Positions 2,173-5,865 of a stretch of DNA of 64,000 nt are shown piece after piece; position 1 is the stretch's first letter; each line of letters opens with the position of its first letter. This stretch comes from Leptolyngbya sp. BL0902. Its GTDB lineage: Bacteria; Cyanobacteriota; Cyanobacteriia; Phormidesmidales; Phormidesmidaceae. The notes beneath the pieces were generated by a model. The model ran no database searches, was not told the DNA's origin, and was given only the letters and a program-made list of their open reading frames with translations. The stretch spans positions 2,046,001 to 2,110,000 of the forward strand of contig NZ_CP046155.1 in the NCBI RefSeq assembly GCF_016403105.1. The letters are read 5' to 3'. The position numbers and the translations under genes were made by a program.

Positions 2173-2306
2173 GATACTGCTGTGCAGTGCTACGGACGGG
2201 GGCTAGATTTAGCGTCATATAAGGTTCTGTATCGCAGGACAACACTAAATCGAGGAGAATTGGGTATCATGGAAAGCTGCTTACTCTATTCCTGCAAGGC
2301 TCTCCC

Positions 2307-3634
2307 ATGGTTCAAGAAATTCCCCGTACTCGGCAGCAAGGGCCGTTCCCCGAAGCCGCCCCTGCCGCATTCCCGGTGTTTTACCGTACCTATAGCCGTC
2401 GAGGCGAGGTGGTGCCGGGGCAACGGGAAACCTGGGATCAAGTCTGTGACCGCACCCTCGAAGGGCTCAAAGAACTGGGCAACCTCACCGATGACGAGGT
2501 TGAACTGCTCAACCGGATGCAGCGTCAGGTGAAAGCCCTGCCCTCTGGTCGTTGGCTGTGGGTGGGCGGCACCGCCTGGAGCAAGCAACCTGAGAACTTC
2601 TCTGGAGCCTACAACTGCACCAGCACCAACGTTGTAGACTGGCGCGCCTTTGGCCTGATGATGGACTTGGCCATGATGGGCTGCGGCACTGGGGCTATTT
2701 TGGAACCCAAATACATCAACCAAATCCCCGCCATCCGTAACCGCATCAGCGTCACCATGGGCGGCGACATTGGCGAAACCCCCGCCGAAGAACGCCGGGA
2801 AATCACCGAAGTTTCCATCGACGGCAACCAGGTCAACATTCGTGTGGGCGACAGCCGCCAGGGCTGGGTGCAGTCCTACCAAACCCTGCTGGAACTCTCC
2901 ACCGATGAGCGCTTCACCGACACCGTGGAAGTCACCATCGACCTGCGCGATGTGCGCCCTGCCGGGGAAAAACTCAAGGGCTTCGGCGGTGTGGCCAACC
3001 CCATCCGCCTCTCGCTGCTGTACGACCGCTGCGCTAACATCCTCAACAAAGCCCTCGGTCGCCAGCTCAATTCCGTCGAGTGCTGCCTGCTAATCGACGA
3101 AGCCGCCGCCTGTGTGGTAGCAGGTAATATCCGAAGATCAGCGGGAATGAGGCAATTCGACAGCAATGACGACCTAGCGGCTGGGGCCAAGGACAACCTC
3201 TGGCAACAAGATGCCGAGGGCAACTGGCGCATCGACCCCGAACGGGACGTGCTGCGGATGGCCAACCACACCCGCGTCTTCCACGAAAAGCCCAGCCTGC
3301 AAGATTGTGTAGACTCGGTGCGGAAGCAGTTCTATTCCGGCGAGGGCGCAATTCAGTGGGCTGGAGAGGCCATTGCCCGGTCGAATGCAGATTTGCTCAA
3401 TACTGCCGAAAAGAAGGAGGTGTTCATTCAGCTCTATGGTGAGTCTGAAGAAAAAGCTAGGGCCTATCTCAAGCAGCTTTTGCTTGAGCATCGAGGTGCT
3501 AGCGAAGGTTAGGGTCGCAGATTGCGTCTGATGTGGAGAAACCGATTTGGAGAGAATTCATGGCAATTGATACAGCAAGCATCGAGCTAGAGCTCGATCA
3601 TCGATTGGGCTGTTATGGCCTCAATCCGTGTGGT
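2307..3634 (+). CDS. nrdJ: Adenosylcobalamin-dependent (class II) ribonucleotide reductase, exon 1
   Basis: N-terminal part of the B12-dependent ribonucleotide reductase that makes deoxyribonucleotides. Hallmarks are S-G-R-W-L-W-V-G-G-T-A-W, N-C-T-S-T-N-V and L-A-M-M-G-C-G-T-G-A-I. From the ATG at 2307 the frame runs to a TAG at 3510-3512. The protein clearly resumes one frame back (T at 3509 read twice, or one base missing within 3503-3512) as W-R-E-F-M-A-I-D-T-A and L-D-H-R-L-G-C-Y-G-L-N-P-C-G, ending at T3634. Splicing to exon 2 at 4383 restores N-P-C-G-E-I, the motif with the catalytic thiyl-radical cysteine and glutamate. With the shift corrected, the spliced protein is 799 aa. The segment around the shift (about 25 residues) looks longer than I recall for relatives. 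The frameshift may be an assembly error, a true mutation or recoding. Confidence 0.88.
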
Positions 3635-3805
3635 AGATGATTTTGCCTCACGTTAAAAACCCGGCAAAAACGGGGAAGGCTGCGATGCTAATCCCGTGGT
3701 AACCAGTTGGGGTAACGCCCGCTGGCACCGTACAGAGTAGAGGATGAAACTTTATAGTTAGCCATTTAGATCTGGCGTACTATAAAGACTATAATTCCTC
3801 CACGA

Positions 3806-4024
3806 GTGTCGGGCTACGTCATGAACGGAAGAACCTATTGTGGGCATTACAACGGGTATTATCTCAAGTCCACCTTGGAATATATCTATGCTCGGTATCT
3901 CGACCATGTAGGCATCGCCTGGGAGTATGAAGTAAAAACCTTTCAGCTCTCCAACGGCGGTTCTTACAAGCCTGATTTTCGGCTAGAAGACGGTTCCTTA
4001 TTGCTCGCGAAAGTGTTCAGTTAG
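3806..4024 (+). pseudogene. Intron-encoded homing endonuclease, apparently decayed
   Basis: A 72-codon frame starting at GTG 3806; M-N-G-R-T-Y at 3821 is an alternative start. The pattern G-Y-Y-L-K-S-T-L-E-Y-I-Y-A-R-Y-L...W-E-Y-E...Y-K-P-D-F resembles the PD-(D/E)xK type of small intron endonucleases such as I-Ssp6803I. The helix glutamate and the P-D-F aspartate are present. Where (D/E/Q)-x-K is expected the sequence reads L-A-K, and the frame stops almost at once, far short of a full enzyme of about 150 aa. I therefore call it broken. Family membership is inferred from the motif pattern only. Confidence 0.6.
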
Positions 4025-4301
4025 TGCTGTCCGAGGAAAAATCACACCAGCGGTGATTACATCCATTCAAGAATTAGCCCTAGCGTTTGCGACAGCCAAT
4101 TCTGAGGCGATTCTAAACTGCAAGCTCAACGCGATTCGGCCTATACTTCAACCGTTTTACGATGAAGTGTTTCGGCGATACAACATCCAGGACGAACGAA
4201 CCTTAAGTAAAGCGCTCCTTGGCTATCAGGCTAGTCGAAAAGACATCTTGGCCTACTTCCGTTCTTTAGTAGAAAAGGTACTCGGAACTACAGGGAAATG
4301 A
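3987..4301 (+). pseudogene. Second intron reading frame, possible C-terminal part of the endonuclease
   Basis: An open frame directly after and one base out of register with the endonuclease fragment; the first in-frame start (GTG) is at 4053. It would encode 82 aa, mostly helical and charged (E-V-F-R-R-Y-N-I-Q-D-E-R), with no family I recognise. Because the two frames abut inside one intron, a frameshift splitting a single endonuclease gene is the simplest reading. An independent small gene cannot be excluded. Confidence 0.4.
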
Positions 4302-4382
4302 ATCTGTAGAACTAGGGGATAAAGAGCCTCTAGGGTAACAACATTTTTTCTGCCGTCACAATAACAACAGCAGAAAAAACTG

Positions 4383-5453
4383 GAGATCATCGGAGCTGAT
4401 TTTCATTGCAATTTGGCGGAGGTACATTTGAATCAGCTTGATCCTGGCAACCTTCAGGATCAAGAGGATGCCTTCACGGCGGCGGCGCTGTCGGTGGCGG
4501 TGCTGTTGAACCACCAATTTAACGAGCCCCGCTATCAGCAGTCGCGCCTGGAAGATCCGATTGTGGGAGTGTCCTTCACCGGATTGTTCGACTTCTTTGT
4601 GCAGGCGTTCGGCGTAGACTGGCTGCGCTGGTGGGAGGCGGGCCGTCCTGACACCATGCAGGGGCTGGAGTTTAAACAGAAAGAACAGGACTACCTGACC
4701 CGCTGGAAGGAGATCGTCCATCGGGTGGTGTGGGAGTACTGCGACCGTCACGGGTTGAAGCGGCCCAACCGCTGTACCACGGTGCAGCCTGCGGGGACGA
4801 AATCCCTGCTGACGGGGGCATCTCCTGGCTGGCACCCGCCCAAGGCCCAGCGCTTTTTGCGGCGGATTACCTTCCGCAAGAACGACCCCGTGGCCATGGC
4901 CTGCATCGACTACGGCTATTCCGTGGTGCCCTCCCAGTCCGACAAGGACGAGAACGGCAACCTGTTGAATGATCCCTTCGACCCGCGCTGTACCGAGTGG
5001 CTGGTGGAAATTCCTGTAGAAGTGCCCTGGGCCAACCTGCCCGGTGCCGACGAAATCGCCATCGAAAAATTCACGGCGGCGGCCCAGTTCGACTTCTACA
5101 TGCAGGTGCAAAAGTACTACACCACCCACAACACCTCGGCCACCATCGAGTTTCGAGAGCCGGAACTGGAAGCCCTGGGCGAACGGATTTACCAAGCCAT
5201 CCAAAACGACGAGGGCTACATCTCGGCGGCGCTGCTGGCGCGGTTCGACGACCTGCAAACCTTCCCCCGGTTGCCCTTCGAGCCGATTGACAAGGCCACC
5301 TACGACGCTGAAAGTCAGAAGGTAGAAGCCCGTCGCGGCACGGCGGATTTCCACTCAGCCCTAGCGCTGTACGATGCCGGAGACCTGATCGAAGCTGGCC
5401 CCGCTGGCTGCGACTCCGACAAGTGCATGATGCCGGAACAAAAGCCGGAGTAG
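4383..5453 (+). CDS. nrdJ: Class II ribonucleotide reductase, exon 2
   Basis: C-terminal 356 codons of nrdJ. Read from the deduced 3' splice site, the exon begins E-I-I-G-A-D-F-H-C-N-L-A-E-V-H-L-N-Q. That is the continuation expected after N-P-C-G, upstream of the first ATG-like start at 4413. Further family blocks are V-G-V-S-F-T-G-L-F-D-F, R-P-N-R-C-T-T-V-Q-P-A-G-T-K-S-L-L-T-G and the C-terminal G-C-D-S-D-K-C pair of cysteines that re-reduces the active site. No further lesion is seen in this exon. A strong terminator follows 15 bases after the stop. Confidence 0.93.
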   Translation, partial: EIIGADFHCNLAEVHLNQLDPGNLQDQEDAFTAAALSVAVLLNHQFNEPRYQQSRLEDPIVGVSFTGLFDFFVQAFGVDWLRWWEAGRPDTMQGLEFKQKEQDYLTRWKEIVHRVVWEYCDRHGLKRPNRCTTVQPAGTKSLLTGASPGWHPPKAQRFLRRITFRKNDPVAMACIDYGYSVVPSQSDKDENGNLLNDPFDPRCTEWLVEIPVEVPWANLPGADEIAIEKFTAAAQFDFYMQVQKYYTTHNTSATIEFREPELEALGERIYQAIQNDEGYISAALLARFDDLQTFPRLPFEPIDKATYDAESQKVEARRGTADFHSALALYDAGDLIEAGPAGCDSDKCMMPEQKPE

Positions 5454-5565: not shown

Positions 5566-5865
5566 TTACATCAGCCTCGGCTGCATCAAGGACAAGCGGC
5601 GCTGCTGAATAGCAGGATGATCCGGTCGTCCTGCCGAGACCTGAACCCAGGCCCGTAATCGGTTGTGGATCGCGTCCCAGGTGCCGTCGTTCACCCACGC
5701 TCGATAGTCCGTGTAGACGGTTTGCCAGACCGGGAAGTCGCTCGGTAGGTCTTGCCAACCGCACCCTTGCTTGACTAGGTAAAAGATAGCGTTCAGCACC
5801 GCCCAGAGGCCGACCGTTCGAGGCCGACCACCGGGCTTTGCTGGAGGTAACAGGGGTTCAATCAA
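5566..5865 (-). pseudogene. IS5-family transposase remnant (N-terminal part)
   Basis: About 99 codons reading M-I-E-P-L-L-P-P-A-K-P-G-G-R-P-R, then V-L-N-A-I-F-Y-L-V-K-Q-G-C-G-W-Q-D-L-P. This is the DUF4096-like N-terminal domain of IS5-group transposases. The family pattern is lost after R-A-W-V-Q-V, where an overlapping frame carries on briefly, and the DDE catalytic part is absent. It lies in the gap between the nrdJ terminator and recG. I could not define inverted repeats or a target duplication. Confidence 0.8.

Follow-up and report, generated by a model that had tools for sequence, protein, structure and literature searches.

Ribonucleotide reductase (RNR) is an essential enzyme, and descriptions of its cellular class II forms give either a single catalytic chain or, for Proteobacteria, a complete barrel plus a small partner. 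According to one account (PMC4520616), class II RNR is a single polypeptide, and a split form, NrdJa/NrdJb, occurs in Pseudomonas aeruginosa and other Proteobacteria; a second account (PMC9669993) describes NrdJa as keeping the catalytic barrel and NrdJb as carrying the C-terminal domains. The split nrdA of Aeromonas phage Aeh1 reportedly arose when a homing endonuclease inserted into the gene (PMC2988022), and nrdJ-a and nrdJ-b of Thermus phage phiYS40 are described as class II genes in two consecutive frames 12 nt apart (PMC3653736). A group I intron is on record in the RIR gene of Nostoc punctiforme PCC 73102 (Meng, Zhang and Liu 2007; as cited in PMC1995217, PMC3984707 and PMC12702839).

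Here we analyze a 64,000-nt stretch of DNA from Leptolyngbya sp. BL0902 (the window), in which the class II RNR gene nrdJ falls into two pieces, the second of them interrupted by an intron (Table 1). Very probably, the locus encodes a two-subunit class II RNR whose halves are translated from separate starts and assemble non-covalently, with a group IA-type intron in nrdJ-C.

Table 1. Features of the split nrdJ locus, in window coordinates
Feature	Position	Strand	Details
nrdJ-N, N-terminal half of class II RNR	2307..3512	+	401 aa; own stop TAG 3510-3512
Foreign tract	3373..4403	+	no blastn match to nearest same-genus alleles (G002, G021)
GGAG, likely ribosome binding site of nrdJ-C	3549..3552	+	11 nt before ATG
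nrdJ-C exon 1	3560..3634	+	ATG + 24 codons, ends ...YGLNPCG
P1	3627..3652	+	exon 3627-3634 with guide 3645-3652
Group I intron (IA-like) in nrdJ-C	3635..4382	+	748 nt; alignment, pairing/covariation test
P3	3660..3813	+	3660-3665 with 3808-3813; double changes in 6/6 pairs
P4 and P5	3670..3697	+	P4 3670-3675/3692-3697; P5 3678-3680/3687-3689; pairing test
P6	3698..3729	+	pairing test
P7	3735..4283	+	3735-3739 GAGUA with 4279-4283 UACUC; 20/20 paired, double changes in 2/5 pairs
P7.1 and P7.2	3740..3800	+	P7.1 3740-3744/3796-3800; P7.2 3750-3754/3783-3787
P8	3814..4272	+	3814-3817/4269-4272; loop contains endonuclease remnant
Dead homing endonuclease gene	3821..4301	+	N part 3821-4024; C part ~3987-4301, another frame
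P9 and P9.1	4288..4333	+	P9 4288-4293/4304-4309; P9.1 4312-4318/4327-4333
Hairpin at 3' splice site	4344..4379	+	4344-4356/4367-4379; not common to 19 aligned relatives
nrdJ-C exon 2	4383..5453	+	356 codons + stop

A class II reductase in two reading frames

Both pieces of nrdJ match TIGR02505, the model for adenosylcobalamin-dependent ribonucleoside-triphosphate reductase: nrdJ-N over profile positions 18-348 (E=2e-103, 347 bits) and exon 2 of nrdJ-C over positions 379-723 (E=4e-126, 422 bits), each passing the cut-off of 340 bits alone. By this model the enzyme is a class II RNR of the RTPR type, encoded in two reading frames rather than as a single polypeptide. The frame that contains NPCG differs from that of 2307-3512 and opens at the ATG at 3560, behind TTGGAGAGAATTC. 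NrdJ-N would contribute the N-terminal part and the first half of the catalytic barrel, and NrdJ-C the finger loop with the thiyl-radical cysteine, the second half-barrel and the cysteine tail, each from its own start codon; the products of these neighboring genes would then have to assemble without a covalent bond. Just downstream of nrdJ-C, on the minus strand (5566-5865), lies what by eye is a truncated IS5-type transposase fragment.

The same layout (a stop, an ATG, then 25-36 codons to the splice site) was seen in 15 intron-bearing loci of 14 genomes, L070 and L159 apparently belonging to a single organism. The halves are separated by anything from an overlap to 210 nt and stand in frame relation 0, 1 or 2. 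In a sample of 388 cyanobacterial genomes, 13 of 23 confirmed intron carriers are split and 10 unsplit; among the at least 42 named cyanobacterial loci listed, two are split (L159, L171), and some others are cut by contig ends. The 210-nt gap of L171 (Chamaesiphon sp. MAG) is the longest among the linked cases and could be the remnant of some insertion. N pieces share a tail, EKKxxFxxLYxxSxxxAKxYLKxLL, and C pieces a head, ELELEHRM, both of which differ from the continuous sequence of unsplit genes. GGAG, GAGG or AGGA occurs at most 18 nt before the ATG in 9 of the 14 split genomes, and the other five have no clear ribosome binding motif. Both sides of the break are under constraint, with dN well below dS in 10 of 10 pairs compared; one caveat here is that dS is saturated in several pairs and that the stretches are 38 and 19 codons long. 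Intronless genes are mostly frames of >700 codons among the matches listed.

A pseudogene, or a sequencing frameshift near 3512 that creates the split in error, would also give two frames, and the frame does break at 3510-3512. Moreover, the intronless gene of G040 has a broken frame near the break site without the split features: by eye, a single frameshift with neither ATG nor binding site. Against an error or decay stand the recurrence of the layout in 14 genomes with differing gaps and frames, the low dN on both sides, the location of the halves at separate loci in six genomes (see below) and the window's own genome, in which no other RNR was found. The relatives largely refute this explanation, which we regard as extremely improbable.

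Separate loci came from a search that used a profile built from ten split tails. Matches at E<=1e-4 occur in 225 of 388 genomes, but 19 form a distinct top group at >=68 bits, made up of the 13 linked genomes (ten had contributed their tails to the profile) and six from another genus, coded g24 (G048, G067, G081, G095, G117, G128). Below them comes G178 at 65 bits, with an unsplit gene, and then none above 50. The C half was not found within ~1.5 kb downstream of the N tail in any of the six g24 genomes. It lies 0.72 Mb from the tail in G067, a one-contig genome, 85 kb from it in G048, far away on the single contig of G095, and, in G081, G117 and G128, on a different contig; it was found once in each genome, as two aligned pieces in G048. 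Starts of the C gene were read in all six except G067 and G095. The C genes of these six genomes and of G138 run from the Gly codon directly into the Glu codon, without the intron; inteins are present at other positions, and the G081 gene reads MTQAPERFLNLTDRTLEAELDHRMSRYGLNPCGEIIGADFHCN uninterrupted. For G138, the C half was seen and the N tail was not found. G178 has a second, unsplit nrdJ (L270, L292; C1:775652-777901), with an insert after NPC and a split-type tail that joins the split clade from outside (96/86); this gene may resemble the unsplit ancestor or donor.

Could a single chain still be made, via programmed frameshifting, stop read-through or a split intein? Cyanobacterial RNR genes often carry inteins, and some of these genomes do too. 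However, the frame relation takes all three values and the gap is variable, no intein sequence occurs at the break in the tails and heads read, and the halves of G067 are ~0.7 Mb apart. We consider a single chain very improbable and return to two separately translated subunits.

PF00268 (NrdB/F) is absent from 20 of 20 genomes (13 linked, six g24 and G138), a survey in which 19 of the 20 have both halves seen and to which the Chamaesiphon MAG did not belong. The window's genome (99.99% complete) has one nrdJ, and neither NrdB/F nor NrdD was found there, NrdD having been sought in this genome only. Pfam PF02867 missed nrdJ in its own genome and is therefore unusable as proof of absence.

To place the break in the protein, we used the structure predicted for L298, an unsplit homologue from a virus (26-sequence alignment, mean pLDDT 86, pTM 0.88), whose best PDB match is 1l1l, a class II RNR. 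The model shows a helix at 371-384, a loop, a second helix at 391-398 and, after it, the NPC loop (404-406). Judged by sequence, the first of these helices corresponds to the split N tail and the second to the C head, and the break is thus predicted to lie in the loop between the two, just before the finger loop, which is described as connecting the two half-barrels (PMC9531940). A viral origin of the break was considered and rejected, as 52 of 52 viral NrdJ loci with a related tail continue to NPC unbroken; viruses may have given the tail sequence, but not the break.

The intron at the active-site codons

In the window, the codons AAT CCG TGT GGT (3623-3634) and GAG ATC ATC (from 4383) are held apart by 748 nt, GGT (Gly) ending at 3634 and GAG (Glu) starting at 4383. 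The exons translate as ...YGLNPCG/EIIGADFHCNL..., the class II RNR active-site motif. A sequence-only reading of this DNA had put an insert at 3635-4382, between the Gly and Glu codons of N-P-C-G/E-I, with T at the 5' site and G at the 3' end, and it was correct to the base: the exon ends in U, and the last intron base is G. CCGTGTGGT precedes the intron start in the window and in 19 aligned relatives, and the intron ends in G, followed by GAR; the uniformity on the 5' side is partly a product of selection, loci having been kept only if they fit a CCGTG(T/C)GGT plus GC(C/T)TCACGT pattern. Splicing would restore nrdJ-C through attack by guanosine after U3634 and joining of the exons after G4382. 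Translation of unspliced RNA stops one codon inside the intron, at an in-frame TGA (3638-3640), and would give a 26-residue peptide only. Given one nrdJ, with no class I small subunit or NrdD found, it is fair to infer, as the same reading did, that dNTP synthesis depends on splicing. That reading mentioned neither the broken frame upstream, with the gene split that it marks, nor the decayed endonuclease gene inside the intron.

The assignment to group I, also proposed by that reading, is supported by homologues at the same boundary and by covarying structure. We aligned the window intron with 19 diverse relatives and derived a 62-pair structure comprising P1, P3, P4, P5, P6, P7, P7.1, P7.2, P8, P9 and P9.1. 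Across the 20 homologous introns 98.5% of cells are paired, double changes occur in 39 of 62 pairs (versus 24.5 in shuffles), and pairing falls to 36-44% when partners are slid; these values partly favor the structure, which was read from the same sequences used to test it. A P4-P6 and P3-P8 core is present, and the P3/P7 pseudoknot holds in all 20. P7 reads GACUA/UAGUC, GCGUA/UACGC or GCAUA/UAUGC in relatives. GAGGA/UCCUC was tried as P7 and rejected, since this pairing forms P7.1 and P7 itself is GAGUA/UACUC. Subgroup IA is characterized by extra stems between P7 and P3, namely P7.1/P7.2, and their presence places the window intron near this subgroup.

Two helices proposed earlier stand in part. 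P1 has the expected U.G at the cut, but seven of its eight positions pair, with a U.U mismatch at 3631/3648. It is invariant, partly via the locus-picking pattern that fixes it, and its seven pairs constitute no covariation evidence. The hairpin abutting the 3' splice site is real but lies outside the conserved fold, since 16 of 19 relatives have no sequence in this region and the other three have different inserts.

The check suggested with the sequence-only reading, a covariance search with Rfam Intron_gpI, gave no match in the window at the Rfam cut-offs, and in 3560-4440 no intron appeared even at E<=1. Because Intron_gpI also misses the N. punctiforme relative (L188), this negative result was judged uninformative. 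A Nostoc homologue, L097, spans the whole RF00028 model below its cut-off (E=6e-4, 23 bits; cut-off 50), and a phage intron at the same site, L213, passes it (53 bits). A SAM_alpha riboswitch match on P1-P4 (window 3618-3689; L188 3502-3573), at 17-20 bits against a cut-off of 36, was judged to be chance.

Intact introns of relatives hold one frame of ~300 codons in the same loop as the window's endonuclease remnant, with YKPDF...VEIKGG (PD-(D/E)XK), a NUMOD3-like stretch and CxxC pairs. One such intact endonuclease, that of L064, combines the PD...ExK motif with similarity to T7 endonuclease I (PDB 1m0d, E=3e-4; Pfam PF05367 at 24 bits, below the cut-off of 29). Relative to these, the window's gene is missing an inner stretch, the end of the PD-(D/E)XK motif is lost, and the catalytic strand is followed by the C-terminal part in a different frame; the G152 intron is 433 nt longer than the window's. 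The gene is dead, and because it is broken the window intron probably cannot home by itself. The same-site intron of L140 (Anabaena sp. UHCC 0204) holds a different frame, GIY-YIG-like by eye (GSIYIIKN...VYIGQT), and, going by this case, the ribozyme may have changed endonucleases.

With its endonuclease decayed, the intron is no longer a complete mobile element, and it might have lost splicing too, in which case NrdJ-C would not be made. This is very unlikely, as the core helices of the window intron are intact and the intron sits in the only RNR detected. We infer that the intron is spliced in the cell and that the two halves assemble into an active enzyme.

At the nrdJ site such introns are not rare, contrary to the sequence-only reading. 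A search with bases 3620-3830 gave matches at E<=0.01 in 26 of the 388 sampled cyanobacterial genomes; 23 of these, the window's own included, were confirmed at the same NPCG/E boundary, and the weak matches in G200, G227 and G303 fall outside the confirmed set. In G305 the 3' end of the intron is at a contig edge, and carriers thus number at least 24 of 388. This count is a lower bound, since the window-intron DNA search missed an insert of ~234 nt at the same boundary in G186 (L293, after 1266), where nrdJ is unsplit and a stop follows soon after NPCG. A pattern scan of named genomes found at least 42 cyanobacterial records with exon 2 also found, as well as at least 37 further non-cyanobacterial records, by title nearly all Bacillota, with an intron-like start at NPCG. 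The latter (range L083-L199; for example L146, Bacillus badius, and L160, Neobacillus drentensis) have the same guide sequence and an RNR-like frame, their exon 2 being unconfirmed. Viral contigs, too, include several with an intron start at NPCG. In Anoxybacillus vitaminiphilus, an RF00028 match of 73.9 bits (L120:5118-5454, minus strand) ~700 nt upstream of the NPCG-site intron start may mark another group I intron close to that gene. Intein-like sequence starts right at NP/C, two codons from the intron site, in L065 and L066 (G021 and G002), L244, L245, L283 and L284; active-site codons are targeted by inteins and introns alike.

A foreign tract around the break

The sequence flanking the foreign tract, at 2296-3372 and 4404-5453 of the window, shares 89-92% identity with the same-genus alleles of G002 and G021, which are unsplit, lack a window-type intron and carry inteins. 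The downstream end of the tract is uncertain by some bases, the match to the intein-free G016 resuming at 4401. Similar trends are seen in other lineages: identity with intronless congeners drops sharply in the final 200-240 nt of exon 1 and is regained farther on (7 of 7 comparisons), whereas two split congeners, L068 and L073, remain 82-90% identical over the same stretch.

In trees of NrdJ-N 1-355 and NrdJ-C 33-381, split genes are scattered among intronless congeners. Trait changes number 12 versus 12.0 in shuffles for N, and 11 versus 12.7 for C, where L231 is labelled intronless though it carries an intron end. Grouping the 13 split genes together is rejected for NrdJ-N (p-AU 3e-39). The 57 columns adjoining the intron place the same 13 genes in one clade (100/99), in a tree based on few columns with the trait itself included; this tree leaves out rows without an AIAR/AVAR/ALAR stretch (short-loop genes) as well as L171, L206 and L232. 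When six g24 tails and the Chamaesiphon tail are added, all 20 stay together with weaker support (92/88, not starred). Because the flank groups as a single clade and the remainder of the gene tracks the host, the break-bearing flank looks, on this phylogenetic evidence, to have a single origin and to have moved horizontally between lineages as a patch.

As for how the patch moved, ordinary homologous recombination, with the intron as a passenger or a separate arrival, has a little under an even chance of being the answer. In six genomes the split halves are apart and the junction has no intron. The introns in split alleles belong to more than one lineage, and an unsplit Okeania gene with the intron, L195, falls inside the main split-intron clade (the intron tree leaves out 12 loci without found motifs and the duplicate L159). 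Unsplit genes are numerous among the intron carriers, at 10 of 23 in the sample and 40 of 42 named loci among the matches listed, some of these contig-cut. In addition, the window intron's endonuclease is dead. Ordinary recombination fits less well with the finding that 13 of 13 linked split alleles from the intron-independent tail search carry the intron (ten of them built the profile), or with the extent of the patch: its downstream end is close to the intron and its upstream end 200-260 nt away, limits expected of co-conversion following cleavage at the intron site.

Group I introns are known to co-convert their flanking exons (PMC2988022). We tentatively suggest, at somewhat longer odds, that co-conversion during homing put the single-origin flank, with its stop, ribosome binding site and start, into intact one-piece RNR genes, that the break shields the 5' splice site from ribosomes translating the first half, and that the halves became independent genes in one genus. 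If so, a homing intron carried a gene break along with it and made the dNTP enzyme a two-subunit half-barrel enzyme. The effect of a mobile intron on an essential gene may here have gone further than the insertion itself.

Comparison with described systems

The window intron is of a group I kind already known; the half-barrel two-gene class II RNR appears to be a novel form of split reductase. No half-barrel split RNR in cyanobacteria was found in the open-access literature searched. About twenty cyanobacteria have the barrel divided at the finger loop, six of them with the halves at separate loci, and a class I small subunit was not found in these organisms; half-barrel assembly of a radical enzyme becomes testable. 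Annotation pipelines probably label such split genes as frameshifted or fragmentary.

The intron of N. punctiforme PCC 73102 is likewise a group I intron in a cyanobacterial RNR gene, a likeness at the level of the gene, and N. punctiforme NIES-2108 (L188) has a homologous intron at the window's site. Compared with the PCC 73102 RIR gene, no IS element was seen in the window's case, and the host gene is split. As described, Aeh1 nrdA resembles the window's locus in having a mobile element in a catalytic RNR gene and two chains, which in Aeh1 form an active enzyme; it differs in being a class I gene of a phage, with an endonuclease gene between the pieces and, in that account, no intron. The phiYS40 genes, as reported, share the two-frame class II nrdJ layout and differ in belonging to a phage. 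NrdJa/NrdJb, in the published descriptions, is likewise a class II RNR made as two polypeptides from separate genes. A break of this proteobacterial type, beyond the catalytic barrel, was not encountered here; the cyanobacterial break comes before the finger loop and, unlike that described for NrdJa/NrdJb, separates the half-barrels, in genes that may lie apart and that, where linked, bear the intron.
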